Assembly (NCBI GenBank): GCA_947652115.1
Contig: OX393563.1
Location: 4,195,516-4,259,515, forward strand
Direction of reading: 5' to 3'
Length of the DNA stretch: 64,000 nt
Origin: Blastomussa wellsi
Taxonomy: Eukaryota; Cnidaria; Anthozoa; Scleractinia; Plerogyridae
The stretch's first letter is position 1. Each line of letters begins with the position of its first letter. The notes below the pieces were generated by a model, which worked only from the letters and a program-made list of their open reading frames with translations, was not told the origin of the DNA and searched no databases. Both the position numbers and the translations under genes were made by a program. This document shows, piece by piece, positions 20,951 to 63,273 of the stretch.

Positions 20951-22263
20951 ACATACAAATTTAAGTGTTACATATTATATTTACATACCACTTATTATAT
21001 CTACATATCATTTGTATCAATTAGGGATTGGAGGAATAAATAAAATAAAAAAAAAATAAAAAAAAGATGGTTAAGGATGGAGAAGATTGAAACGGATTAC
21101 AAATGACGAGTTTGAAAGATTTAGGTTAAATATTTCAAAATACACGAACTAATTTGTTACCATAAAGTACGTAGTTCCTTTAACTTCATTCTGTTGACAC
21201 AGTGAACAACGTTAAATTGTTTAACCAAAATGTAAGATGTGCTCTACACCCAAAAGTGTGTCCCAGATCGGCGCCTGGGTTTGAGAAACAGTCCCAACAC
21301 CAATTTAATCCAGTCTTTTCGTCGTAACTACTCAAGACTTGCCATAACTAGCCTGACGTGTCAGGCATGATGATGATGATGAGGAAGACTTTATTAAAGT
21401 GTCAGAGTATTTAGCTTTATACAAACTAATTGCGGACACTATTAGAATAAAAAAATATATCTTAACTATGGATAGAAACGTAATGAAAACCAGGCGGGAG
21501 GCGGAAGGGTGAGGAAACGAGCGGATGTGAGTGAAACGACTGTAATGCTGTAAACCCCAGGGTCGTATGGGGGCAAATTCCACACACCTTTACTTCCTAC
21601 AAGAAATATCCCAGCAAAATCAAACACTATGTTAGAAAAAAAAACATTTAGTTTTCCTAGTTTCCCTTCGTAAGTCTAGAACGGAATCTTTTAAGCAGAA
21701 AATGCGCTCTTTACGAGCATTACCGGCAGGCAAAATGCGACAATTTAGGAACTGAATCTTTCCAAGTCTAAGACACACATTGACAATACACAAATTAATA
21801 CAGATCGAACGCCGGGGGAATTAAGCACAACAACACGCGCAAACTAAACATTGTTCAAGAACTGTTTATTTGACTCACTACTTCGTTTAGTCTCTTTGAT
21901 TTCCTAGCTGTGATCTTTAATTTAACATAACACCCGGGACATACAACACGACTCAAGAAGCTAGAATTGCTCTCCCCTATCGCCCCAACCAACTCTTACC
22001 TTTTTTCGTCCCGCGTGCACCATAATTCGGCAGTGCACGCTAGAGCATGAACCAATTGTTAGCTTTTTGCCCTTTTTGTTTAAAAACAGTGTTCTCCCCT
22101 CCTTAAGACAACTTCGTCAAAAAGCTTCTTGATCATATATAAGTCGAAGGTTTCTTTATTATTGGATTTTTAAGATTTTCCTTTCTTGTATAAATAACAG
22201 TGCTACAGTCAAACAATCCCTTTATCGGCTACTATCTTGAAAGACGAATCTTTAGTTAACCCG

Positions 22264-22792
22264 GTATGGCGTTCCATCCCCGCCAAAATTCGAATTGACA
22301 ATACAACATTCAATCATGCAATGCTATACATGCCCAAGAGCATTACAACATTCCCAAACACTCTGCGTTGTTCTCGATACGACTACGATATGTCATAAGT
22401 TACAATACAACGTCTTAAATCGCAATACAACATGTTCACATACATCGTACAACATGTGACAACTGACTTTACAACATGTTGCCGATGAATACTGTTCTTG
22501 ATTGACTTTTCAACCTTGTATCATCACGAAGCGAACGCCACGTCTCTGTTTACGTTTATACAACATGCCACGGGCTCGATCGATGAACTTCACAAGATTT
22601 TTCCAAACGCGACTTTATGCTGCATGTAACGATCGGGTTACAACATAGGTTTACAACATGCCACGACATGGGTTTACAACATGGGTTTACAACATGCCAC
22701 GATAGGGTTCACAACATCCGTCAAACTCAATCGATAATCAATCGATTATGAACTCTTAAAATGTTAACCGCTGACCCGGTTATTTCGCTGTC
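22264..22792 (+). repeat. Left terminal inverted repeat of the HECT/DDE transposon
   Basis: About 529 bp, inverted match to 34889-35438. It contains eleven copies of ACAACAT, mostly as TTACAACATG, spaced 20-60 bp and clustering toward the inner edge. Such subterminal arrays are typical transposase-binding sites. The inner edge is at ttatttcgctgtc. Confidence 0.85.
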
Positions 22793-22906
22793 TCTTTTAC
22801 CGCTGACAAAGATCTGTGATTACTATGGGCTATTTGTCCATCGATGCACTATCTGCTCCATGCGGCGATTTTGAAGATCGTGTCTAATCTTTAATTTGTA
22901 TGGACG

Positions 22907-25900
22907 ATGAGCCAGCGAAATATGAACAACATACAATCTGCCCGAACAACGTTGGTTCGGGTGGCGGAACAGCTGTTAGATTTGGCCCAAGAATCAGGTA
23001 AGAAACTATGTTAAGCTTGTAAATATTTGTACATTGCCTGCAAGTCGAGTTTCAAACAGGGTTGATGGCAATGTATCTCTCGGACAATCTATTGAAGAAA
23101 GGGTTAATGTACTGATCTTTTCTATGCTTTCAACTAAAAGTCAATGTGAAGCATCCCTTTCTCGATTGAAACAGTTTGTTTGTTTATTAATTGGAAATTG
23201 GTTGCAATCTTTTGGCGGGAAATCTAATTCATGCGGCATTGTTTGTTTTGTCAATATTTACCGATGATTCAGTGACGTCAGCTATTGGAACAATGTTTTT
23301 ACATGATAGAATAATAATCGCCCCTTACTACTCCTCTCTATAGACTAGTTTATTTTTTCAAGAAATTTTATTTCATACAGTTTTGTTTTCAAATTTTAGC
23401 ATGGAAAATAGTGCCTTATATATAAGTATATCATGGTTTGGTTTGCAATGTTTCCAATCTGTGTGGATTTTAGTTGATTTCACCTTCACCTATCCTCTCA
23501 TGATTAGTGGAACACTTTTTAGGCATTTCAGTAGACAGGAAAATAAAATGAAGTTGGGTTGAAATATTCGACAAGCCAAAGACAAAACATAATAAAACCA
23601 CATGATTACAGGTCTTTTTAATTTCTATAGGATCAAGTGCAGGTAATTTGACAGCTCCATCTGGCAGTGGTTAGTGAAATTTAAATTTGCTAATGAAAAT
23701 TAAGGCTTTTTTATAGACATAGAAGAATGAAGCTGATCATTGATAAATTTAAGCCAAAAATGTTAAAACCCTAAGATTACAAATTATTTTAATATTGTTA
23801 CTTTTGATTTCTGTACTGCTCCATCACCAGTAGCCAGTGGTAAGGGAAATTAAAATTTGTTAAGGCACAAATAAGAGCACTACATACATACATACATATC
23901 CTTTATTCTCGTCTCAAGGTCAAACACGGGAGTAAAACTGCCAACACTAGTCAGTCAATTCTTGTTCTGGAAATTTTTGACTGTCATTAATTATTGAAAA
24001 ATAAGATAATATTAATAGAAGGCCATCCAAAAATAATATTGAAGGTGGGAGATCTCAAGAGCCAAATTTTAAAAGGGAAGTACATGGTGAGGGTATATAT
24101 TCAATGAATGGATATTTTCTAGAAAACACATTGTGAGAGGTGGTGTATCAGGCTGCAGACAGAGTTTGGGAATCCACAGACACACTACAGTAGATATGTA
24201 AGGCTTCATTATCAATAGCCCTTTTTGTGGTTGACTTGCTTTATTTGCAGCATAGTAATAGTACAGTAAGACATAGCAGCAAAGCAATTTCTGGAACTGA
24301 TTTTCTTGTGTTCCTTGAACTAATTGTTACTGGTAACCATTTCAAATTAGTTAAAAGAGTTCAAAAATAAATACAGTGTTTGGCAGTTTTTGCCAAAATT
24401 GCCTTGCTTCTGTTTTTTATTCTATAATGTACTTTATTAATGTAACCTAAATTATTGACAGGATCCAGTGTTAGTGCTGTAAGAGCAGGACAGTTGGGAA
24501 CTGGTAGGACTAGGAATGCCCTATTGTCAAGCAGTACGTGTACCTCAGTTACTCCAGCAGCTAGTGTTCAAGAGCATCAGCGAGTGTTTTCCTACAGACC
24601 AAAGACCTCAGGTGGAAATGCAAACAGAGCAAAATCAAGGGCCAGGTTGCAAACAGCAACTTTGAAATTTGTATGTCTGTCTGATACAGGGAGTAGCAGA
24701 CCTCCAGCAACTGTTGCTGAAAAAGCTGTTTTGGCAAATGCAGGTCTGGGACCCGCATCAATAACATTCGATTTGAATGGTGATTATGTCCATTTGCATA
24801 ACAAACTCCTGGAACAGTACCCAGATCTTGTTAAGGCTGGAGGATATGAGCTCCTTTTGTATCAAAGATCTGGTGTTAATCAGGGATTTCATAAAATTGA
24901 AGGCTCATTAACTCCAAGGAGGTTGAAAGACCTTGTACATCAGGCGCAGATCTTCATAAGACCACTCCAAAGGAATATTGAAACTGGTGGCATAACACCT
25001 TCTGATTGCAGCCAGTCAGTTGATGTAAGTTAACAGCCTTACCTGTTCTATAAATTTATATTAATTTTTCCCAAAAATTTCTAGGCTTTTCATTAAGAAT
25101 GCATAAAGATTGGACTGCTGGTCCATGCTTTTTGTTATATTTAACAGAAGGCCCAAAGTAATAATAACTATTATTAGACCTTGCATGTTATTGTACGTGT
25201 GGACAAATGAAGTTTGCAGGTGTTAATAAGAAAATTCCAATGGTTTAATGTGAGTCGAGGGTTGCATGCTCTATTTCAAAATTTTGGGTAAGGAACTGAA
25301 TGTCATAAACATGCACATGCACATTTGCTATTTTTCAGGATAGTCCCATCATCTCGTGTTTTGAGTGCAACGAGATAATGCCAATGGATACGTACAGGGA
25401 ACATCAGGAAAAGAAGCATGGTGGTAGAAAGGCATGTACCCAGTAACAGTTATTAGAATTGTTCCTTTTAAAGTTGTTAATAATCATAGGTACACACTTG
25501 TAAAGATTGTTCTGTACATGTAAAAATTATGTATAACATTGTAAATCAATTCATTTTAACCCTTAACGTACTAACCATGCATATATGCGTATATAATTGG
25601 TCATGCTCTTTGTACCACTTGTGACGTCATCAATTTAACGCCACCAGATATTCTTGATAAGCAGATTATAGAGCTAGGATAGGTCTATCTACGCAACTGT
25701 CCGTTTTGGATATCGACCACTTTCCGACGGAGCAATTGCAAGAAAACGTGATCAGTTTTTGGTGCAAAAATGGTGACAAAAAGGCCCATTATACCTACAA
25801 TTGATCAAGGACCCATTTCCAAGGTTTACCCATTATAAATACCCAACTTTTTACGGGCGACAGAAAGGATATGAGTAGTAGAAGATAACGAGAATAAAAG

Positions 25901-28900
25901 GGAAAAGAGAAAGGAAAGGAAAAGGGCAAGAGGAAAAAATCGAAAAGGGCCAGCAAAAAAAAAAAAAAAAAAACAAGTCCAAATTTTGGCTTATGCGCAT
26001 GCGCCAAATTTAAATATTGTACATTTATGTACCTCATCTTCAAAGAAAACTTCCTTTTTGGTAGAAAATTGCTTTTTCAGTAAGTGTGAGGTCCATTTAG
26101 CGATATGGCAGCAAAAAATCGGATTTTACGGCAAAAAACGGTATTTTTTTAGTGTCCAGTTAGTATGTTAAGGGTTAATTATTTTTGTTGTTTTGGACAA
26201 ATATGTACTTCTCTCGGTATTGTTGAAAAGAACATAACAAGATGTAAAATCTCAGTTAACTTATACTCCTTGTTGGAATATTTAATAATGTATTTTTTTC
26301 ACATTTCGACTTACAGAGAAGTGCTTGTGAACCGATACACAAACTTTTCTCTGATGCCATATTTCCAAATTGCAGGTAAGTGGTGTTCCTACACTGTAGT
26401 AATATTTATTGCACTGGGTTAACTCGAGATTTGTTCAATTTACATTGTATCATGAATAATGTGAATATTGCTTTTTTGTTTGGCAAGGATACACTGTTAA
26501 GTAGCATTTTTTATTTTTATTTTTTCATTTTACTAGTCACATGTACCGGTATATAGTTTACATTGTTATCTCAAGAAAATCTCCAAAATGTGTAAAAGGC
26601 TGATGGCCTGGGTATTTTTAAGCATATAAATATTTCCATTTACTAAATTCAAGAAGAAGCCCAAAATATTTTTAGCACACACACACACGCACGCAAAAAA
26701 AAAAACAACAATATTATGAAATTAATTCCCCTTCTGACCATAATAATTTGATTTCTGTACTGTTTTAAAATACAGCTATGAACGAAATGGAAATGAAGAC
26801 AGTAAGGTTGAGAACATTGAAAATGAAGACAATATGGTCAAGAACATTGAAATTGAAGACAATATATGTAAGGTGGAGAACACAGGAAATGAAGGCAATT
26901 TAAAGGTGGAGAACACTGGAAATGAAGGCAACAAGGTTGAGATCATTGTAAATGAAGCCAATGACTTGAATGAGCACCGCAAAGAGGTAACTCATTCCCA
27001 CATGTAACATCAATGGAGTGCTAGATTACATTACACTATGTGTACGTGTGAATCCTTGAATGAGATTTTTGCTAATTTTGTAGCTTTAACGGCAGGTCCA
27101 TGTATGTCTGCAAAGCATGCATATTGTATGGGTAATAAATAAAGTAGATTAGTTAAGGATATACCATCCAACAGACCAGTGTTTTGTCAGTACAGTATAT
27201 CTGATTAAATAGCGAGACACTCAGCTCTTGTGAGTCTTTGTCTACATGTATATGTATGGTGTTGATGATGAAAGTGCAACTGAGTATTACCATGCACTTG
27301 CACTAGGCCTATACACAGTGTATCTCCAAGACAATCACCTAAAATATGAGTAACATATATATATAGCACAAGCTACAATACCAGTAATTGCACTGATAGT
27401 TTTCATGCTCTTTGTAAACAGTACACAGGGGAAATCCAAGGTAAACTTAGCAATAAAATAATTTTAAAATGTTTGATTTGTATTGGGTAGTGAAGCAATA
27501 TATTTGTTTCTATCTGTTTCTTGTTATTTGAAAGGACATTGATATCCTGAAGGATGTGTTCCCCTTGCACCCGGAGAGCAGCCTTTTAGAAGTCCTTAAT
27601 AGAAGTGTTGATCTCCAGGATGCCATCAGCCAGATGTTAGAGGCGGCCAGCAGACCTCGGACTCCTGGTAAATTGATGTCTTTGTCAAGTTTATTAAAAT
27701 GGACATTAACTAATATGAATCAAGGAAAAGAAAAACTGAAATATTTCTTCGTAATGACATGTACAGTATTTGGAATTACATGTAGAGCAAAAATGTTTGG
27801 TGCAAATAATACACAGCCCATTTACCAGCCTATTTCACCCCTTAAGGGACAAGGCATTAAGTCAAGTAAGTTGGTATGTACACGCCTGAAAGTAGAATGA
27901 TAATAATTATTAATATATATCAACACAGATTGAGACAGCTCTTAGAATACTTATTCGCTCCCCTTCTTTAATTGTTCTATGGACTTCTTTAAACATTTTC
28001 AATGGGCCATGGAAATACTGTACATGTACATATCATCTTGTGATAAAAAAAATAATTATTATACCACACTGTCAGAAATGGTAATATATATTGTAATTTT
28101 TGTATTCTAGTGTTGCCAGAGGAAAATAAGGAAACAGCTCTAAAAAAGTACAGAGAGATCAATTTAAAAGCAGGAACTCAACTGATTGAACTGAATAGAA
28201 TGGAGAAGTCAATTTTACTGCAACTAATGCGTATCTATAAGGATCCTTGCATGAGTCTCAACAAGGTACCGGATGTAAACTTTGCAGGCGAAATTGGGGC
28301 AGATGTTGGCGGTCCAACGAAAGAGTATTTTTCTAGTGCCATTGAATGTCTCACAAAAGTTGACCCAAAGACTGCGCTGCAATTGTTTTTTGGAGAGTGC
28401 GGGCATATGGTACCACTGTGCAGCATGGATGCGGTTTCAGGTGGATGTTTTCAGATGGCTGGTAAGCTGGTTGCACACAGTATTCTGCATGGAGGCACAG
28501 GTCTTACTGGTTTAGCTCCTGCAATGGTGAAATACATCACATGTGGTTCTGTAGATGAGGCACTGAACCTGGTTACACTTAATGATGTTGCAGATGTTGA
28601 TCTAAAAAGTGCTATTGAAAAGGCAAGTTGTGTTGAATTTAATTGACTTCTTCAGAAATCTCAATTAGAAACAATGTCAACTTTTCAATTTTGGCATGTT
28701 TAGGTAGGCATAGAGGTCATTTTTATAATTAATTAACATATCCAGCAATAAAAAGGTATGTGAGGGTGATTGATAAGCTGGTCAACATACTGGGCCTATG
28801 AATTATAATATTATTTAATATTAAATAAGTAATTGCTTTTTTAAGATGATACACTAACTGTGTAATAAAATATGTGGTTATTGTTCATCGTGGTGTATGA

Positions 28901-30780
28901 TAGGAGATGAACTTTATTCATTTGTCCATCCTAACTGTCCATTTGGATGGCGTATTATTAACTGTGTCTGCACAGTGATGGATGTCAAATTGTCTTTCTC
29001 ACCTTTGTATGGTCACATGAATGCAACCAAACACAAGCATTCCTATGAATTAACTGAGTTAACTTTGTGACCCTACATTTACAAAATGCGAAGTGCCATT
29101 ATGCTTGTTCAACATCTTTTAACACATGGTGGGGATGCAGTGTGGGAGGAGCTTGATATAATTTATTGTGGGAGGCAGGGGTCATATTTCAGATGGCTTA
29201 TACAGTAGGGGAACATTATACTTGGAAAAGATTTTGCAGGCAACAAATTTAACATGAAAAGAAAGAAATACCATATGCAATGCCATAACATAAGTAGACT
29301 GTCACACAAAACCTAACTACTGCCTCTACAGCTGTAGAGCCATAAAATGCAAGTAAAAAATCTCCAATATTTTAGCTCTTATGAAACTGCAAAAACACCT
29401 ACTACTGATAATGATCACTTTTTAAAGTTGGGAAACTTGAAACATGAAATAGTATAATCAAGCCATAAAAGCTGTGGATTTGTAATTACCATGTTAATTT
29501 TTTAGGTCTCTGGTGACAGCAGCGTTGTCACTCTCACTGAAAGTGAGAGAGACATGTTAGAGGGTCTCATGGTAAGACATGGATGCACTGACCTTCCTCT
29601 AACAGACAGAAATAAAGAAAAGGCTATTCAAGATGTGATGGTTGGTGAAGTGCTGACAACAAGAACAGCTGCCCTTGATGCTTTTTTCAGTGGTTTGAAT
29701 GCTTTAGGCCTTGGAGCATTTCTTAGAGCAAACAATTGTATGGCAAGCATTGTTTTTCCAGCAGTTGAGGATGTAGATGTAGATGTTGACCTAATGGAAG
29801 CCAGGTTTGAAAAAGTACCTCAGGAGCTTCTAGAAACTGAAGAGCAATCAAATGCTTACAATTGGTTTTTCTCATTTCTGAGAGAAAGTGACGGAGAAAT
29901 AGGTATTAATTTTATACCATTCTTTGAAGTTACTAAACAATACTAAGCCACTGAGGAGTGAAGCCTCACCCCAAACCAGAACTTTTTGAATTTCATTTGC
30001 TGCATACATTATTATGTTCTCCCCCAGTCCTGGTAATAATTTATTATATTATTGATTATACATGATTCCCCATAATTTTACAGGCTTGGGTAGATTGAAA
30101 CATTACAAATGGGGGTGGGATCAGTGACACACAGTAAAGCATTCATGTCTGTCATGCTCCTTGCAAGTCAGTGTTAGTAAGAAGCTCAGTGAATTCAGCA
30201 ACAACTACATTAGAATGGTTAACAGTTGTTTATTTGGTTTCTGTAGGACGGTATGAATGCCACTGGCCATAATTAATAGTTATTGCTCACTGCATTTCTG
30301 CACCGTTACCCTTTGGCTTGTTTCATGGAAAAGAGGGGAGTGTGATTTGAGGGGAATATGGCTTTCTGAAGTAGTGAAACTTACTTTTATTACATATGTG
30401 TTTTCATGATCATCAAGGACCACTGCTACATTATTTATTTCAAAATTCATACATATTTAGGGATCCAACATCACAGTTACATTACAATATAGTTGCCAAT
30501 TGACTTATACGGTACTATTTGTTTGTTACTATTGCTTCATATAGACACCAATACTGGAAAGAAACTGATAGCAAGCCTGTTAATGTTCATCACTGGATCA
30601 TTCATTCTGGGAAATCAATTGCAAGTGCAATTCAATACAGATCCCTCAAAGCCTCTTCTAGAAGCTGACAGTTGCTTCAACCGAGTGATACTCCCAACTT
30701 GTCATAGCAATTATCAAGGCTTTAAGGAGGCCTGCATCAGGTCTCTTTCCTGGGGTGCTAAGGGATATGGAAGATTCTAA
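22907..30780 (+). CDS. Transposon-borne HECT-domain E3 ubiquitin ligase (G2E3-like)
   Basis: Nine exons join in phase into 764 residues: 22907-22997, 24462-25024, 25339-25431, 26317-26375, 26776-26986, 27535-27667, 28111-28622, 29506-29902 and 30545-30780. Exon 3 has a zinc-finger-like CFEC...HxxxxH pattern (ISCFECNEIMPMDTYREHQE). Exon 5 is an acidic repeat array. Exon 6 resembles a CUE/UBA ubiquitin-binding helix bundle (LKDVFPLHPESSLLEVLNRS). Exons 7-9 are the HECT domain: N-lobe FAGEIGADVGGPTKEYF, C-lobe with SCFNRVILPTC carrying the expected catalytic Cys, and the ending WGAKGYGRF. No stop or frameshift interrupts it. Introns 3 and 7 use GC donors (aaaggcatgt, aaaggcaagt). AATAAA lies 70 nt after the stop. 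Fish genomes hold many similar proteins annotated as G2/M-phase E3 ligases. Function in the element is unknown. Confidence 0.85.
23624..23850 (+). other. Candidate in-phase microexons in HECT intron 1
   Basis: Three short segments flanked by AG and GT keep phase 1-1 with exons 1 and 2: gatcaagtgcag (about 23632), ctccatctggcagtg (about 23655) and tagccagtg (about 23833). They would add Gly/Ser/Ala-rich residues. The two local blocks are near-duplicates (tccat, cagtgg, ttaa-ttg). This could be alternative splicing or chance. Confidence 0.3.
25560..26174. mobile_element. piggyBac-type MITE nested in the HECT gene
   Basis: TTAA (25556-25559) precedes cccttaacgtactaac and TTAA (26175-26178) follows the inverted copy gttagtatgttaaggg. 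TTAA target plus CCC-starting TIR is the piggyBac hallmark. It is 615 bp with no transposase, and contains a poly-A run near 25957. It sits in intron 3 of the HECT gene. Confidence 0.75.
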
Positions 30781-31653
30781 GGTCACTGTGGCGAGCTTTG
30801 TTCAGTTGATATTAACAGGCCAAAATTGGGACCTGAATTGCATGTTCAAATAAAGTTAATATTAGCTCTGTAAGGAAATGCCTATGCAGTCTTGAGAAAT
30901 AGCACTCCATCGCCATGGTTAACTTGCCATATTTGCTTAGTGATAACAAGAAAGTTAGGTACTTTCAAACATGATCTTTGTGAGCTCTGCAACTATGTTA
31001 CTATTCAAAGGTTTTTCTAAAGGGCTATTAGTAGATATAGCACTAGTTTCATTTTGTTTACATTTGCTATAACAATCTAAAAAGGGTCTCTTCCCTTGGT
31101 TACACAGACCTACCCTGATATTACCAGCTCCGGCTGATTTTACCTTTTTTACTATTAATGTAAACTCAAATAATCATAGTACTCCTACATGTTAATGTTA
31201 AAAGAAATTGGCAATTTAGTGAAATAAAAGCCATTCATGTTCACTTTCATCTCAAATTGCTTTTTCCTCCAATTTCATTGAGTAGTTTACTTTTCTCAGA
31301 GAATTTGTAAAGAACAGCAGTTGTTTTCATTCTCTTTGGGAACAACACAACTATGCAACACCTACAGGCATGCCTATTGAGACTCAACATGGAGTGTGTG
31401 ATATTCAAGAGAAATTTAACCTCACATTTATTTCTTTTATTATAAACCTCGTGAGTACATTCCTAAGATGACAGTGGCGCCCTCTTACAACAGTGCAACA
31501 AAACAGCAAGAAAAATTACAAGAAAAATTGCTTACTCTAGATCTATCAGGGTCTTATTACCAAGGGCTTTCACTTACACTATACATGTATCTAGGTATGC
31601 TTGGGTTTATAAAACATGAATCTATATCTTCAATCAAAGTAATAGAAACTTAA
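30781..31653. other. Spacer between the two convergent transposon genes
   Basis: Shared 3' region of about 870 bp. AATAAA near 30849 serves the HECT gene; TTTATT near 31427 could be the reverse-strand signal for the transposase gene. No other feature is visible. Confidence 0.5.
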
Positions 31654-34600
31654 CTACATCATTCTTTCCACTTCATGCAAGATTCTTTGGAATAGGCCAA
31701 TGCTGTACACATCACCATCTGTATTTTCCAAGGTTATGGCCCGGAGCAACAACAGCTGAGCATCAGACAGTGTGCAAGGTGTTTCAGGAATTTCCACAAT
31801 ATTGTCTTCAGCATCAGCGGGTACAGGACCTTGCCAGTCAACTCCATAGTCATGACAATTCTACATCGGACAAAAGTACTGCTTTATAAATTATTAATAC
31901 ATTCAAACCTGTATATAACGGCCCTGTATTAGCAGCCACTTCTATTAAGCAGCCAGTTTTCAAAGTCCCGAGTTACATCTGGTACTTTAATTAAACCTGT
32001 ATTAAGTGGCCACCTGTATCAAAAGGCCACTTTCTGAAGTCCAGCGGGTGACCGTTATATACAGGTTGGACTATTTTTAATTGGGAAGCAGCATGGCTGA
32101 ATGGTTAGGGACACTTACTGAATATGAAACACAGCTTTAAGGTGTTTCACTACAGTTTTTCGGGAGCCATACCTAATGTTTTCAATTAGCTTTCTTGCAG
32201 ACTTTCCTAAGTGGGATCGATGTGAAATTTTCACCAACTACTAGTCTTGGATTGTAGTTTGGTTTGATGTACTTTTAAGTGAAATCGATATTGCCATAGC
32301 AACGATAAACAGAAAACCTCGAAATCACTTAAAACTTAAACTCATCTATTATTTATTATATAGTACCTCGTCATTTAATGCCAAATCAGACTGTAAAGCC
32401 CAGCCACCAGTGTTGTGAACACCCCTTAGCCAAACTTGAAGAGGACTTAGATTTCTCTCAGTTCTAAGTGGGTGATGTGACCAGGCATTTGTCCATTGTG
32501 TAAGATGTCTGTTCAGCACAGGAAGATAGACATAGTGCAAGCACCACAGGTGCATAGGATTGTTTGGATCCAAAAGATTACAACTCTCTAGATGATAAAA
32601 CAAGTCGTAAAAGAGGCACAGACATCCCTCAAATACATCCTTCCATAACCGCTCTATGCGTTGGTTATGGGTGCTTTTACCTGAACGAAAAATGGAATAT
32701 GGAAAAACTGATTGTTATAACCACCCTGTTTTAACATATGATGAAAACCAAATATTTTTGATGTTTTGTTGCAAAGGAAAAAAAACACAGCATTGTAGCT
32801 AAAAATACAATCTCATTGCAATAAATCAAACATGCTCATGGTGAGGAAACTATACAATCCTGTAGTGATAAAGTACCTTCCAGTTCTTTCGTGGAAAAAA
32901 CATTGGCATTACATTCTTACATACCACTCACACTTACAGTGTAACAACTAAATAGGCATCATTATGTTTGGCTTGTGATAACCAACGAACATGACTGCTA
33001 GACATACCTGCAATAACACTGCCACGCCCTGGTCCTCTATCAGGATGATGCAACATAAACCATCCTACGTCATAATTTTCGCCTCCTTTATCACATCTTA
33101 CTCTAGATGGTAGGCCATAATTTGAAACAGCTTCTTTAAAAAGATTCAGGACAGTTTCAGCTTTATTGTTGTCTGAGGCATGTAGGTAAACGGGCAGTCT
33201 AGAATATCCATCCACCCCTCCATGTACAACTATTCTCCATCTTAATTGCAAAAAAGACATTATTTTTATCATTATACAGCTTCAAGTGCAAGTCGGCTTT
33301 AAAATACAATAATCAATAACTGATACATTTGTCGGTTCAAATATTGCATGTATGTTCTTTGAGAAAATTTTAAGCAGTAAAGATAAGTTTTTCTCAATGC
33401 TGCTATGGTCTGGCACAGTCTCATTCAAGTATCCTCAATAACAAAACTCCTGACAATGTACATGCCTATAAGCTAAAAAAGAAATCTTTGGAATAAATCC
33501 TCATCATTAATAATTATTTAATCATTCCACCCTTTTTTACAAGTTACAGACTATTTCACTGTGTCCTCTTTACCTTATTAACTTGTGATTCCCATCTATG
33601 TGCCAAAGTGCTTGAGGGGAATACACGTTATACACTCGACGTCGAATTGACAACCTCCATCTTTGTAGAACACCTGTTGGATCTGTACGAAGAAGAGACT
33701 GTCTAATTCTCTCTCTCTGAAGTCTGTGCCCCATACTCTGTAGATGACCTCTGAGCATTCTCAAGCCCACTCCAGGGTGCTGTTGTTGGACTGTTTTCAC
33801 CAAACTATCAAGATCGTCATCACTTATTCTACTGTACGTCCCTAGAAACCAAAGCAATTACGTTTGAAGTGATCTATCCAGTGTGTGTGTATGTGCGTAG
33901 GGAAGGGGGGGGGGGAGGGGAGTGAAGATGGCTCTTTTTAAATAGGCAATTTCCGAGTTCTCTCCTGCCTCTGTTTCAAAATGAGTGCAAGCGCGAAACC
34001 TTTCATATGAAAATGAGTTTGATTTACATTTGAATGAACTTGTGAGTAAAACTCATTCAAATGTAAATCAAACTCATTTTCATATGAAAGGTTTCGCACT
34101 TGCACTCGTTTTGAAACAGATGCAGAACTTGGAAATGGCCTATTAAAATGAGGAGGAAGAGGTGGCACTTCTGGCTAAAGAAGGGTGTAACTGCTCCAAA
34201 AAAGGTGTAGGGTTTCTCCCTAAAGGGTCTCATGTTTTTGTTGTTGTTTGTTTTAAAAAAAGGAAGGGTGTCAGTCTCCCCTAGGCCCCTCCTGCCCAAA
34301 GTCAGACAACGATATGGTAGGCAACATTACTTACAAGCTTGTGTGTTTTCCTCAGGTATGAAAAAATAATTAAACTGTAATGATTTTTTTTAAGTTATGG
34401 TTACAGAGTAAAACTTGAAATAATGATGTCACTTTATTTCTTACCTGTAATGCTGATACCAAAACGAGACATCCTTCTCTCTACTGTCCTTGTTGACACC
34501 CCCAGCAACTGGCCAATCTGTGGAACATTAAATCCACTTTCAACAAGACAAACCAGCTGTTCTTCCTTTATATCGAAGTAAGGACGTCCTGGGTTACCCC

Positions 34601-34855
34601 ACTGTAAATTTTCGAACCACTACAATTGTTAGGTTGATCATGAGCGGCTAATGTGTCTGCTTCCTTCAGGTGGTTAATTGCCACACCAATGTACGATACA
34701 AACGACCCCGGAAGTTCCGCGTTGTTCACAATGGATCTGTTCAAATACTCCAAACGGAGAACTAAACTGCTACAGTCGTCAGGGCCTTGAAAATTGTCGA
34801 GCCTTTCTATCGTATCCTGCACCACCGATAGGATACGAGCAATGTTGTCAGCCAT
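31654..34855 (-). CDS. DDE integrase-core transposase
   Basis: Five exons on the minus strand: 34855-34445, 33841-33574, 33240-33008, 32680-32367 and 31860-31654, about 477 residues if one base is restored in exon 1. The N-terminus (MADNIARILSVVQD) is helical. A helix-turn-helix follows (GRPYFDIKEEQLVCLVESGF, IGQLLGVSTRTVERRM). The catalytic core has D in WHIDGNHKLI, D in VRCDKGGEN and E in HNQRIERLWKDVFEG, so the DDE triad is intact. HHPLRTERNLSPLQVW is typical of this family's C-terminal half. Splices 2-5 are canonical and in phase. Exon 1 is the problem: the N-terminal frame and the HTH frame differ by one base near 34615, where a TAG follows NNC in the HTH frame. It could be a real frameshift, a small intron or a base error. 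Confidence 0.82.
31913..32070. mobile_element. Short MITE (CAACCTGTATATAACGG ends)
   Basis: caaacctgtatataacgg at the left matches inverted ccgttatatacaggttgg at the right. About 158 bp, in the last intron of the transposase gene. No ORF. Confidence 0.6.
33943..34143. mobile_element. Palindromic MITE (ATTTCCGAGTT family), copy 1
   Basis: Almost the whole 200 bp is a hairpin: taggcaatttccgagttc to gaacttggaaatggccta, with the inner arms ttcatatgaaaatgagtttg and its inverse. It lies in intron 1 of the transposase gene. A second copy is at 62074-62256. Confidence 0.7.
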
Positions 34856-34888
34856 GATTGTTGGCAGACCGCGCAGGACCTGGCGCTG

Positions 34889-35438
34889 GACAGCGAAATA
34901 ACCGGGTCAGCGGTTAACATTTTAAGAGTTCATAATCGATTGATTATCGATTGAGTTTGACGGATGTTGTAAACCCTATCGTGGCATGTTGTAAACCCGA
35001 TCGTGACGTGTTGTAAACCCATGTTGTAAACCCATGTCGTGGCATGTTGTAAACCTATGTTGTAACCCGATCGTTACATGCAGCATAAAGTCGCGTTTGG
35101 AAAAATCTTGTGAAGTTCATCGATCGAGCCCGTGGCATGTTGTAACGTAAACAGAGACGTGGCGTTCGCTTCGTGATGATACAAGGTTGAAAAGTCAATC
35201 AAGAACAGTATTCATCGGCAACATGTTGTAAAGTCAGTTGTCACATGTTGTACGATGTATGTGAACATGTTGTATTGCGATTTAAGACGTTGTATTGTAA
35301 CTTATGACATATCGTAGTCGTATCGAGAACAGCGCAGAGTGTTTGGGAATGTTGTAATGCTCTTGGGCATGTATAGCATTGCATGATTGAATGTTGTATT
35401 GTCAATTCGAATTTTGGCGGGGATGGAACGCCATATTC
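34889..35438 (-). repeat. Right terminal inverted repeat of the HECT/DDE transposon
   Basis: About 550 bp. It differs from the left arm mainly by one extra 22-bp unit (ttgtaaacccgatcgtgacg, around 34989-35010 on the + strand) and scattered substitutions. The transposase ATG lies 34 bp inside it. Confidence 0.85.
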
Positions 35439-35803
35439 AACCCGCATAAATCTTTCGCCTAGATTTCCGTCGAGGTGAAGAACTGAATGAATTTATAGAC
35501 CAATTTTTCGTTGCTCTGCCTGANNNNNNNNNNNNNNNNNNNNNNNNNNNNNNNNNNNNNNNNNNNNNNNNNNNNNNNNNNNNNNNNNNNNNNNNNNNNN
35601 NNNNNNNNNNNNNNNNNNNNNNNNNNNNNNNNNNNNNNNNNNNNNNNNNNNNNNNNNNNNNNNNNNNNNNNNNNNNNNNNNNNNNNNNNNNNNNNNNNNN
35701 NNNNNNNNNNNNNNNNNNNNNNNCTAAACAGCTCCTTCGCTCTCCGGTTATATTCTGCTGCGTCATCTACAAAGTGAAAGAAAGCACCAAAAGTGACGTA
35801 AAA
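35439..35803. other. Flank of the large transposon with a 200-bp assembly gap
   Basis: 35524-35723 is N. Sequence before it (35445-35523) has no recognised coding content. Sequence after it (35724-35803) is the truncated exon 5 of the quinone oxidoreductase. The remaining C-terminal coding sequence of that gene is either in the gap or on the far side of the 13-kb element. Confidence 0.7.
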
Positions 35804-41800: not shown

Positions 41801-44210
41801 AAAGATACAAAAGACTTCATCAGTTTCACACAGACGACGAAAGTCCCACAGAATACAATTACGATAGTCTCATTAGATGTTACCAGCCTGTTCACCGACA
41901 TCTCTCAAGAAGAGGGTATTGAACTGCATGCAGGGCATACAAAGCATTCTATCAAAAGGTCACTCCAATACCAACCCACGCACTCAGAGAAATGCTCAGA
42001 CTTATACTTCAAGAGAACTCCTTCCAATTTCTTCAGACTCACGGCACCGCAATGGGCACTAAAATGGCAGTTGCTTTTGCCAATATCTTTATGTCCGCGG
42101 TTGAAACCGAGATCATTAACACAAGCAAAACCAAACCACTCAAGTGGAAAAGATACATTGATGATGTACATGTTGTAGTTTCTTTGTGGGTCACAACAAA
42201 AGAGGAGATTGACTTCTTTATCATAGAAGCAAACAGACAACATCCAACCATTAAATTCACGGCTGATATATCACAGAGTGAGATAAATTTCCTAGACACT
42301 ACAGCCTTCAAAGGCGAAAGATTGTACAAGGGAATCTATACTACACGTTCGCCACATTTTAAACCTACTGAAACTTTTCAGTATACACCTTTCTCCTCCT
42401 ATCACACTCCGGGTGTTGCTTAAAGGATTCATCAGCCCTCAGACTTCTTAGAACTAAATCTTCAAGAACACTCTTTGAAGAAAACATAAATAATTTCAAG
42501 TCGCGGTTACGTGAACGAGGCAACCCAAACGACCTAGTCGAAAAGATCCTCACAGAAGTCAAATTCACAGAGAGAAAACATGCGCTCCAAGAAAAAAACA
42601 GAAGGTGCAGAAAAAAACATTGCCTTTTTAATAATTGCCACATAATACAATTCATCAGTTCCAAATCTCAAGAAGATTTCAATGAGCAAATGGCATATCA
42701 TTGAGAAACAACCTCTACTTTGAGAGATTTATCGGGAACCACCCATTATCTCTTACAAAGGAGGTAGACCATATATTGAAAGACATACTCGTAAGAGAAA
42801 AACTATAAAGCTCAACCTATTACAAACAACATCACCTGTTAAAACAAGTGACAGTATCTTTGAAAGTAGATTAAAATTTATATATTTTTAATATGATCCA
42901 GCAAAGGACGGGGGATTAGACCGTCTGAAATGTCCCCGCATAGTGCGGCATTAGATCCCATAAGAAATGGGAAATGCCTAATCCCCACCTAATCCCCGGC
43001 GTTGGGGGCAGTGGTTTACACTGACTGGTGCATAAACATTTCCTGTAGGGTATTATTGTGCTGTCTGGTGGTTGCCATATAATTCCGATTTACTTCAATG
43101 ACAGAAACTTGACTTACTTGAACCTATAAAGGCAAAAGCAACTCTGTCACCAATTGAAACGCCCTGAACACCAGAACCTAATTTTTCCACTGTTCCAGCT
43201 CCTTCAAATCCCAGAATTCCTCCAGGTTGCACTGTTTTCATCATTCCTTTCCTGACGACTACATCGATAAAGTTCAAGCCAGCAAATTGATTTTTTACCA
43301 GCACCTGTTAACATTGTTCATGTCAAAAGAAAATTATTATCTACTAGAATCTGAAACGAAATGATATTTAAACGGGGGAAATGGTATGAAAAATCAGATT
43401 CATTCACAGATGACTGACTTATTTTTAAACTATCAGGTCAATAATTATTTTAAAATGTGTCACTCAAAAAACATCTTATAGAGGATATTACATGGCCGCG
43501 CGGAGATACGAAATTTCTCTTCGAGTGTTGGAAGTGAAAGTCCACTGCGAACATACTACACTCCGTACAGTACAAATATCACGCTAAACAAGTATAAGTA
43601 TACATATGACCCAAAATTAACCCTGATCGACACCCTGGCCTGAGTATTGCTGGCGACACTCGTGTTGCTGGTGCTGTGCTGGGCCCTTGCGTCCCCGCGA
43701 TAGCTCAGGCCTTCCGCAAACACCAGCACCAGGCCGCAACGATGCTATTTAAAAGTTTGGTTCTGAGAAAGACGCACAAAACACAACATAGTCGCCTCTG
43801 TCACTTTTCATTCAGTTTATTGTTTTAGAAATCATTGCACATGCATCAATTTCAAGACTCACGAGATAATAACGTTTTCGCTGGCTAAAAAAGTATGGCA
43901 ATCAGCCCGTCGTATAAAAAGAAATTAACTTTTCCTTTTCTTCCCTCAAGAGAATACAAAAAGCTCACTCAACTAGCTAGCACTGGTTTAGTAATTCTGG
44001 ATCGACCAATATGCCTTGTCAAAATCATGGATAACGTACCTCGTTTGGCCCTGGTTCAGGAATAGGAGCATCTTCGTAACTAAGCTTGCTAGAATCACCG
44101 TACTCGTGTATCTTAACTGCCTTCATTGACATACTTGCAAGCAACGTCAAACGGAGCCTTGTCACTTGCTTTACAGGAGAGAAAAGAACGCGTCTGATAC
44201 AAATCGACAT
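35724..44210 (-). CDS. Quinone oxidoreductase (zeta-crystallin/QOR type, MDR superfamily), exon split by a transposon
   Basis: Minus-strand exons in phase: 44210-44040, 43304-43118, 40335-40120, 39564-39385, 38696-38593, then 35797-35724 up to the gap. The N-terminus ([20 protein letters not shown]) is basic and hydrophobic, like a mitochondrial presequence, before [15 protein letters not shown]. Family motifs follow: [32 protein letters not shown], the NADPH-binding [38 protein letters not shown] and [10 protein letters not shown]. It should reduce quinones with NADPH as a cytosolic or mitochondrial enzyme. Exon 5 reads [19 protein letters not shown] to GSFY, is interrupted by 35804-38592, and continues [17 protein letters not shown]. 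The final about 50 residues are not in the visible sequence. The gene is head-to-head with the BROX-like gene. Confidence 0.85.
35804..38592. mobile_element. 2.8-kb TIR transposon inserted in a coding exon, 6-bp TSD GTAAAA
   Basis: Ends gagggtccccattagg and cctattggggaccctc are inverted copies. The flanks are exact duplicates GTAAAA (35798-35803 and 38593-38598). Both termini hold subterminal CGGGAT/CGGGATT repeats (for example gggatgcgggatttgg at the left and gggattacgggattgg at the right). The interior encodes a SAP/NHL-like ORF and no transposase that I recognise, so it is either nonautonomous with a captured gene or belongs to a group whose transposase I do not know. Confidence 0.85.
36208..37869 (+). 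pseudogene. SAP-like/NHL-repeat protein ORF inside the exonic transposon, one in-frame stop
   Basis: A single reading frame of about 550 codons is broken only by a TAA at 36655-36657. The first part has a SAP-like helix pair ([31 protein letters not shown]). After the stop comes an NHL-like beta-propeller blade ([50 protein letters not shown]), then a helical region and an acidic Ser-rich tail ([20 protein letters not shown]). No ATG fits the start; the true 5' end is probably spliced. No DDE or zinc motif of a transposase is seen. Either this is the cargo or remnant gene of a nonautonomous element, or a novel transposition protein. Confidence 0.5.
40411..40712 (+). repeat. tRNA-derived SINE, diverged copy
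   Basis: Shares tgtgttcttg, cacccaggtgtataaa, tagcatcccatccagg, gtagaaatac, aaaccggg and gatgggccactaggct with the 20.5-kb SINE. The tRNA-like head (gtggcagtagttagtgcgct) is degenerate. It lies in intron 2 of the quinone oxidoreductase gene. Confidence 0.6.
40713..41043. mobile_element. MITE with AGGCCATTTCCAGTCCG ends
   Basis: The left end aggccatttccagtccg is exactly mirrored by cggactggaaatggcct, directly abutting the SINE. The ends resemble those of the ATTTCCGAGTT palindromic family, suggesting related transposases. No ORF. Confidence 0.6.
41579..43032. mobile_element. TIR element (TGCACCAGTCA ends) enclosing a Penelope fragment
   Basis: tgcaccagtcaatgtaaa is mirrored by tttacactgactggtgca. 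Inside both ends come G/C-rich arms with repeated taatccccgc-type units. The 1.45-kb interior is dominated by a Penelope-like reverse transcriptase fragment, so this is probably a nested insertion or a composite. It lies in the second intron of the quinone oxidoreductase gene. Confidence 0.65.
41740..42860 (+). pseudogene. Penelope-like reverse transcriptase fragment
   Basis: In shifting frames: [16 protein letters not shown], then [48 protein letters not shown] and [10 protein letters not shown], then [20 protein letters not shown] and [19 protein letters not shown] is the catalytic motif of the polymerase. The order and wording match Penelope-like elements. A segment before THGTAMGT is missing, several frameshifts are present and no GIY-YIG domain follows, so it is dead. 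Confidence 0.8.
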
Positions 44211-61831: not shown

Positions 61832-62073
61832 CGCTACAAGTTCAAGAACATTGATATAGGCATACATGTGCATTTTACTTCTCGTCAGAAAATTTACTTT
61901 TAGGGTTGTGCATTTTCGCGTATTGTATCATAATGCCTCGTCGAGGCTGTCAAATTTTGGGGAAGAATCTATATTTTGGAAAACACAACGGAGCGCTGGG
62001 CTATGCTCCTTTTATGGGCCTCGTAGGCTACGGTTTTCTTCCTCTTATTTGGGAGTGGTTAATCAGTTAGTGA

Positions 62074-62256
62074 TAGCCCATTTCCGAGTTATCTTTTGCC
62101 TCGGTGTCAAAACGACACTTTAGTGCGAAACCATTGATATGAAATTGTGTTTTACCTGCATCTTCATTCTCATGTAAAACGAGCTCATTTCCATGTGAAG
62201 TTTCGCAGTTAGACTCGTCTTGAAACAGAGGGAAAAGGGAACTCGGAAATGGCCAA
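62074..62256. mobile_element. Palindromic MITE (ATTTCCGAGTT family), copy 2
   Basis: tagcccatttccgagttatc pairs with gaactcggaaatggcc; inner arms gcgaaaccattgatatgaaa and tttccatgtgaagtttcgc pair too. Same family as 33943-34143, more diverged. Confidence 0.6.
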
Positions 62257-63273
62257 TTCACCTGAACGAAATGTTGTCATTTGCCTCTCGCTGGTGAACG
62301 ACGCGACAATCATATAAACGAATTAAAATTCCTCATTGGAGAGGGGATTAATTAAAGAATAAAAAGATACACCCATGACCGATTGAGCAGTTTAGCCCGC
62401 ACCGTTAGCCAAGAGAACCAAATGGCCATGGGGCAAGAGCCAAACGCCTGCAGCTGACTAATCGTTGACTAAATCGATCACGAAAGCGGCAGATCTGAGG
62501 CCTGTTTAAATGACAGAACAAGGTTGTTGGAAAAATGATCCAAGAAAGCTAAAGTAACACTTTTTTGGAAATTGCGATGCAATGAATTTCTTATTAAACT
62601 TTAATTTTGAGAAATAAATTGGCTCTATTATATTGGTAAACATTCCTGTAGCAACTTCCAAGAAACCCTCGAAGGCGATATATATTTTAATCCCGCTTTG
62701 GGAGAATAAATGGCAAGTAAACTGAATAATTCGCTCATTTTCTCCGGAAAAGAAGAGAAAAGTTACTTAGGTATTAAACTCAGGTTACAGAGGTATTTTT
62801 GAAGACAAATTAAAATTCTCATTTATTTATTTATTAAAAAACTTAACTGGTACTTTTGACATTACGTTACGTCTGAAGATTCAGATTCAGTTATAAAGAA
62901 TTTTTATGAATTAGAGGAAAGCAAGTAAACAGTCTGCATCGTAAAGGGCCTTTGGCACTTTTCTGCCTGTGTGGCGATTTGATTTCTGGTTCGACGGACC
63001 AGGAATCAAAGTTAATTTATGCGATTAAAATCCTTTTCCGTTGACCTCACGAGGCTTGCAAAAGCTATAAAAATTGAGGAAAAGGCTGGTCATTTGTGGA
63101 AGTTATGAATGGAATATATCGCTTGTATTTTCATATGAACATCACATGAAACATGATGTTCTCGCGGGGTGATACACAAAGCTGCTCGGGACGAAAGCTA
63201 AAACAAAAGGGAGGAGGCTAGACCAAGAGGTTTTCGAGAGCACGTGAAAACTCGAAAACAGTAAACCTCTTCA

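Follow-up and report, generated by a model that had tools for sequence, protein, structure and literature searches.

The subject of this analysis is a transposon in the genome of the coral Blastomussa wellsi, found in a stretch of 64,000 nucleotides of contig OX393563.1 (C4:4195516-4259515 in our contig labels; hereafter the window, to whose first letter positions without a contig label refer). In the reading that we consider likely, this 13,171-bp element is a DNA transposon with ends of IS3EU type and two genes: a predicted cut-and-paste DDE transposase is accompanied by a predicted HECT-type E3 ubiquitin ligase, which acts against a host factor that restrains transposition. Among accessory genes, fungal DNA transposons are known to have TET/JBP dioxygenases and alpha-kinases; an E3 ubiquitin ligase dedicated to this role and kept as a recurrent partner over dozens of copies would add a new type. 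The element runs from TATGG to CCATA and is bounded by long terminal inverted repeats (TIRs), which both start with TATGGCGTTCC and are 95% identical across 550 aligned columns; most of the difference between left and right is one 22-nt indel, and the outermost 292 nt of the pair hold a single mismatch. The 28-bp TIR tip has only these two matches in the window (up to three mismatches allowed, 0 expected by chance), and a third copy was not found there. The two genes are convergent and start close inside the TIRs, with the ATG of the ligase at 22922 on the plus strand and that of the transposase at 34855 on the minus strand. Long TIRs and convergent genes beginning inside them had been claimed in an earlier model-made reading of the letters of the window (the original prediction), and both were found.

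The same element occurs elsewhere in the genome. A query of the left TIR plus the first HECT exon, run against 367.8 Mb in 124 contigs, returned 26 matches, and full-length copies number four (that of the window on C4, one on C1, and two on C9), at 98.9-99.97% identity. The three outside the window are 13,169 to 13,221 bp long, carry 2, 25, and 23 substitutions relative to the window copy, and are flanked exactly at the TIR ends by target-site duplications (TSDs) of 6 or 7 bp, namely cttttt, gaaaga, and gtgaaat. Both genes are present in all four copies; the HECT frame is open in each, and over its 2232 nt the other three depart from the window copy at 0, 2, and 2 positions. The transposase frame is open in three. 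Where both ends of an insertion are visible, a TSD is present in eight of nine cases (seven of six bp, one of seven bp), the ninth being the window copy, and TATGG..CCATA stands at each visible end across 17 loci, all selected by their match to the element's TIR. A copy on C12 has both genes, but 10.9 kb apart instead of the usual ~4.2 kb, and we therefore regard it as interrupted; its left TIR was not found. The same plan, with TIRs, is shared by further families at C8:10444452-10452805 (8.35 kb, TSD CTAAAG), on C5 (~11.6 kb, GTTATG), and on C23 (~6.9 kb, AATAAT). In all three, read at both ends, the TSD is 6 bp and the start is TATGA or TATGG, and the C5 family has the first 24 TIR bases in common with the window element. 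In one more family, at C8:9.7 Mb, both genes are convergent; no TIR pair was found there, and its left part reads N. The original prediction would have been contradicted by a HECT gene mainly at fixed host loci, or by TIRs that do not bound both genes elsewhere. The outcome favoured it: near-identical HECT copies lie on different contigs, and TIRs and TSDs bound both genes in three other families.

Genome-wide, each gene was sought with one exon (HECT, window 28113-28622; transposase, window 32367-32678), and a pair was called where a match to the partner lay no more than 15 kb away. These searches score the best candidates only (for the transposase, the best 150 of 224), and counts for large families are lower bounds; the matches are exon pieces, so one gene may count twice, with one such case on C5. 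Of 58 HECT exon matches, 46 were paired, and in every one of the 46 the nearest transposase was downstream and in opposite orientation. When HECT positions were moved randomly along their contigs in 1000 trials, a mean of 0.60 pairs and a maximum of 4 were obtained. With 118 Pfam HECT matches added, 61 of the 150 transposase matches were paired, all 61 convergently (control of 500 trials: mean 1.33, maximum 5). The paired share was 13/13 among transposases of at least 60% identity and 7/28 among those below 35%. Because the pairing recurs at so many transposase matches, the ligase likely helps the elements persist. The claim that the HECT and transposase genes travel together in one transposon is strongly supported by the four full-length copies and by these two sets of counts. 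A mapping of HECT presence and absence on the transposase tree (9 changes) was set aside, as at least 4 of the 20 rows taken to lack HECT do have a Pfam HECT match in convergent orientation. Contig C1 shows strong regional clustering, with 24 of the 58 HECT exon matches between 15.1 and 24.8 Mb, a span of less than 10 Mb; at C1:20375760-20391556, seven transposase matches in the same orientation form a tandem array, 2.4-3.4 kb apart, without HECT matches. There is also a HECT form in nine copies (e.g., C4:22933854 and C12:15397889; Pfam HECT 43.3 bits each, open frames of 352 or 398 aa) with a transposase match near just two of them. Its mover may be too divergent for detection, or may be of another kind.

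The transposase gene occupies 34855 down to 31654 of the minus strand. As read from full-length copy A, its product matches rva_4 (PF24764) at 269 bits and has a helix-turn-helix (HTH) region. The catalytic D, D, and E lie in HIDGNHK, CDKGGEN, and NQRIERLW, with 36 residues between the second D and the E (DD36E), and they are invariant in 17 of 17 aligned transposases, including the query. Here, the original prediction of a transposase with all three acids held for the acids and not for the frame of the window copy: exon 1 is 411 nt there versus 409 nt in the three other full-length copies, which are open throughout. On this comparison, the window copy is frame-broken, or exon 1 holds an assembly error. 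A 98-nt intron inside exon 1 was considered and rejected, since the three other copies have an open frame at that place and related transposases read through it as coding sequence. Among named proteins, the closest relatives of both genes come from corals; Oculina patagonica has a transposase relative at 75% identity over 58% of the query. Scans of viral contigs gave no match. Three contigs filed under a sponge bacterial symbiont (LWTN01000118, 139, and 127) encode animal-type rva_4 transposases related to that of the element, with no long TIR pair and no HECT match, and on one of them the transposase adjoins gypsy-like reading frames. These contigs are probably host contamination of a symbiont metagenome-assembled genome.

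For the ligase, our model on the plus strand (22922-30780) has eight exons and 743 residues, without stops and with consistent phases; its splice borders are GT-AG apart from one GC-AG intron. The uninterrupted 764-residue open reading frame originally proposed gave way to this model, and the cysteine in SCFN that came with it was retained, as residue 709. Pfam finds HECT (PF00632) at 28.5 bits against a cut-off of 23.9. Residues 398-742 align weakly with E6AP (E 0.023), and within this weak overall match Cys709 (..DSCFNRVILP) falls on the TCFN site, whose Cys we take to be the catalytic Cys of E6AP. The N-terminal region has no Pfam domain match; up to E 10, the Pfam matches are HECT and one below its cut-off (Na_Ca_ex_C), with no PHD and no RING. 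By eye, we take the CxxC..H..H finger of exon 3 to be UBZ-like. Structure predictions were poor (mean predicted local distance difference test score, pLDDT, 40.9), and their only confident part was in the Oculina relative, a three-helix CUE/UBA-like bundle at residues 45-83 (pLDDT ~80). That relative, at 42% identity over 68% of the query, was the only one returned by a protein database search that needs shared 5-residue words (1 of 7996 and 1 of 370 scored candidates). Within that search, what the original prediction said of fish and of G2E3-like genes found no support.

Transposase families appear to have exchanged the ligase that fills the slot. We compared the two genes in 30 of the 46 pairs, the other 16 being omitted as apparent copies by score, and in 22 after eight near-copies were dropped; the exons compared are short, at 163 and 90 columns. 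In the transposase tree, the window element groups with C1_19904, C12_14885, and C9_14452 (support 95/88; identity 64-68%), whose HECT exons are just 30-32% identical to that of the window. In the HECT tree, it groups with F2, F3, and C1_24580 (support 98/95; identity 52-58%), whose transposases are just 44-54% identical to that of the window. The HECT data reject the transposase clade by the approximately unbiased (AU) test (p-AU 1.1e-6 with four rows, 3.9e-41 with three rows), and the transposase data reject a HECT clade of the window, F2, and F3 (p-AU 2.7e-5; C1_24580, a short piece, was omitted). Over the 22 families, HECT and transposase distances show no correlation (r 0.07, a value equalled or exceeded in 2008 of 9999 permutations). 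A Mantel test over the 30 pairs had seemed to favour co-divergence (r 0.49, 0 of 9999 as high; Spearman -0.05), and this was rejected, since it was driven by near-identical copies and fell to the r of 0.07 without them.

These patterns bear on what the ligase might act upon. In the mechanism that we propose, the transposase would bind the long, repeat-rich TIRs, excise the element, and reinsert it with a six-bp stagger, cut-and-paste being assumed. The Cys of the HECT protein would accept ubiquitin from a host ubiquitin-conjugating enzyme (E2) and pass it to a target held by the N-terminal domain and the finger. We favour a host silencing or repair factor as that target over the element's own transposase because the ligase seems to have passed from one transposase lineage to another rather than following its own. 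It is rather unlikely, in our judgement, that the ligase acts on its own transposase, either limiting its dose or tagging the transpososome so that p97 removes it once strand transfer has taken place. Such a role would suit a partner whose position is fixed and whose orientation is convergent in every paired case, with both genes kept open, and unfoldase remodelling of transpososomes is known from MuA and ClpX. However, a cognate pair should co-diverge, whereas here the trees conflict and the distances over 22 families are uncorrelated, and many transposase relatives have no HECT match nearby.

The HECT exon also looks to be under constraint, as judged from substitution patterns. Between C1_19904 and C12_14885, nonsynonymous (dN) and synonymous (dS) divergence are 0.112 and 0.801 in the HECT exon, a dN/dS of ~0.14 in this single family pair, and 0.041 and 1.378 in the transposase exon; C1_15185, a near-copy of C12_14885, gives a HECT dN of 0.096 and dS of 0.858 against C1_19904. 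No stop interrupts 53 of the 58 HECT exon matches. These values argue against the ligase being a neutral passenger, a former host gene that was picked up in the distant past and is copied although it does nothing for the element. Its persistence in one fixed slot, in numerous families that share little sequence identity, argues the same way. DNA transposons often capture host genes, the function of the ligase for the element is itself a prediction, and coding columns vary no less than others in the four full-length copies; even so, we judge a passenger to be quite improbable.

Several observations weigh against the reading of a transposon whose ligase disarms the host. No transposase match was found within 15 kb of 12 of the 58 HECT exon matches, and no HECT match within 15 kb of 89 of the 150 transposase matches; the ligase may therefore be unneeded by some relatives, lost, or missed. 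The window copy has no TSD, the six bases that adjoin its left TIR being acccgg and those at its right TIR ttcaac, and its transposase frame is the broken one. Ten insertions with the element's TIR ends (L018-L027) have no HECT exon match nearby, nine of them abutting an assembly gap, so that the original suggestion that same-TIR copies be checked for HECT is answered positively by the full-length copies and negatively by these. Five of the ten (L018-L022, on C15, C2, C23, C8, and C16) are short insertions with perfect six-bp duplications and an N gap in the middle; four carry transposase-side sequence at either end, and one end of L021 breaks off within the TIR. L023-L027 are single transposase-side ends, and two further end fragments (L029 and L030) are too short for assignment. 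L018-L027 may be inverted-repeat deletion derivatives, though nine of the ten are gapped. As to constraint, HECT dS was saturated in the other seven of nine pairs tried, the dN/dS comes from one exon and effectively one family pair, and that pair has a high transposase dS. The four full-length copies give no sign of constraint because substitutions are too few and not rarer in coding columns (10 of 3665 coding, 10 of 1097 TIR, and 17 of 8470 other columns are variable). A conserved N-lobe motif is altered in several families, so some family ligases may be inactive, and the best match to solved HECT structures in the PDB is weak for the single sequence (E 0.023), reaching E 0.00079 with a three-row profile. 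Lastly, the p-values for exchange are generous, as the clades were named post hoc, with the distances already seen, and the exons are short; the effect is large.

The unpaired HECT matches could also be taken to mean that HECT genes are ordinary host genes beside which the transposase lineage prefers to insert. Besides the 12 exon matches, 51 of 86 merged Pfam HECT places are unpaired (35 are paired), and these include multi-exon runs resembling ordinary host HECT genes as well as unpaired multi-copy forms. We find this hardly credible, the least so of the explanations weighed here: the neighbours are convergent in 46/46 cases, near-identical pairs lie at distant loci, and in four families both genes lie within TIRs and TSDs, by which the idea is largely refuted.

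The missing TSD has a local explanation. The right border of the window copy is probably an assembly misjoin between two copies, because gttgaa, its right hexamer reversed, exactly flanks another, broken copy (C5:21047841), where three repeat units resemble parts of the 88-bp right flank at 83-92% identity. A 200-N assembly gap follows 88 bp past the element's right end. Between window 35436-35723 and the locus L024 (C5:21037940-21047939), the flank hexamers are reverse complements and the flank resembles the repeat there. The matching hexamer that the original prediction had seen at both borders, AACCCG (22258-22263 and 35439-35444), was rejected as a TSD because it contacts neither TIR end, being separated from the left one by 1 nt and from the right one by 3 nt, whereas duplications adjoin the TIRs at eight other insertions. 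The absence of a TSD and the nearby N gap would also suit an assembly chimera of two mobile elements, but three other copies with TSDs share the content end to end and just the right flank looks misjoined, and we hold a chimera to be very improbable. Coordinates are collected in Table 1.

Table 1. Features of the transposon and its right flank, in positions of the window
Feature	Position	Strand	Remark
Whole element, TATGG..CCATA ends	22265..35435	.	13,171 bp
Left TIR (528 bp)	22265..22792	+	contains internal TACAACATG-type repeats
HECT exon 1, start codon	22922..22997	+	model; open in 4/4 copies
HECT exon 2, N-terminal domain	24462..25024	+	42% identity over 135 positions in C5 family
HECT exon 3, CxxC..H..H finger	25339..25442	+	
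HECT exon 4, low-complexity linker	26776..26986	+	join with exon 3 least certain
HECT exon 5, CUE/UBA-like	27535..27667	+	analogy with residues 45-83 of P0121 model
HECT exon 6, HECT N-lobe	28111..28622	+	GC donor; genome search query
HECT exon 7	29506..29902	+	
HECT exon 8, C-lobe, stop	30545..30780	+	presumed catalytic Cys codon 30673-30675
Transposase exon 5, C-terminus, stop	31654..31860	-	
Transposase exon 4, catalytic E (NQRIERLW)	32367..32680	-	
Transposase exon 3, second D (CDKGGEN)	33008..33240	-	
Transposase exon 2, first catalytic D (HIDGNHK)	33574..33841	-	
Hairpin, 73-nt arms	33965..34125	.	inside transposase intron 1
Transposase exon 1, N-terminal region and HTH	34445..34855	-	frame broken in window copy
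Right TIR (547 bp)	34889..35435	-	
Right flank, 88 bp	35436..35523	.	ends at assembly gap; other locus is probable origin

Two further features of the window can be mentioned. Sequence similar to the hairpin of transposase intron 1 lies outside the element at 62073-62258 (68-77% identity in pieces), and the two are probably a small non-autonomous repeat; several arms of the L018-L027 insertions end near this hairpin, which may seed inverted-repeat deletion derivatives. At 41992-42423, an open frame resembles a piece of a reverse transcriptase, which by eye we take to be Penelope-like.

A broader proposal, about which we have more doubt than confidence, is that much of this animal's complement of IS3EU-type transposons would consist of modular two-gene elements trading HECT "weapons", held in the slot opposite the transposase, against host silencing, as fungal elements trade TET/JBP demethylase genes, and that many lineage-specific orphan HECT genes of animals would be cargo of such elements or domesticated from them. 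A dedicated ligase as recurrent partner of transposons would explain lineage-specific bursts of HECT genes and would warn annotators that many lineage-specific HECT genes may be mobile. It would also offer a direct system for asking if transposons disarm host silencing or repair via ubiquitin. The apparent exchange of the ligase makes the question of its target testable, as ligases with different partners can be compared.

Among known ligases, those of the E6AP/NEDD4 class (PDB 1c4z and 1nd7) share the HECT domain and the Cys in the same C-lobe motif with the window ligase, which differs from them in being very divergent and on a transposon. G2E3 has N-terminal PHD/RING-like fingers with a C-terminal HECT domain. 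The C-terminal HECT domain is a point of likeness; however, Pfam recognises only HECT in the window ligase and no N-terminal finger domain of the G2E3 type, so that, at the level of domains, membership in that group is not supported and the G2E3-like label of the original prediction was dropped. A passage of PMC2837046 has the G2E3 subfamily arise only once chordates and echinoderms had split. In searches of the open-licence PMC literature, no HECT-carrying DNA transposon appeared among the papers listed, and neither HECT nor ubiquitin occurs as a word in the main texts of PMC10045372, PMC12730594, and PMC10853768.

Among transposons, the closest likeness is to IS3EU. Passages of PMC10045372 give IS3EU elements TA..TA ends and usually a 6-bp TSD, and passages of PMC12730594 describe fungal TET-carrying IS3EU families with TAYGG..CCRTA ends, TIRs over 30 bp, and an alpha-kinase gene facing the transposase, with TET/JBP between. 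The window element shares the TA..TA ends, the 6-bp TSD, TIRs well over 30 bp, a facing second gene, and a DDE transposase, which in IS3EU is related to IS3/IS481. By ends, duplication, and layout, it fits the description of the IS3EU superfamily. GingerRoot, described from clubmoss in a passage of PMC10045372 that does not separate it from IS3EU, likewise has a 6-bp TSD and mostly TA..TA ends, a likeness by description only. The Styx element of Zymoseptoria, for which part of PMC10853768 proposes derivation from a two-protein IS3EU element that gained extra coding sequences, is fungal, unlike the window element. The main difference from the fungal TET-carrying families lies in the facing gene, an alpha-kinase there and a HECT ligase here. 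For the apparent exchange of the ligase there is nonetheless a fungal precedent, as TET/JBP genes, according to passages of PMC12730594, have moved between transposons of fungi, IS3EU elements among them.

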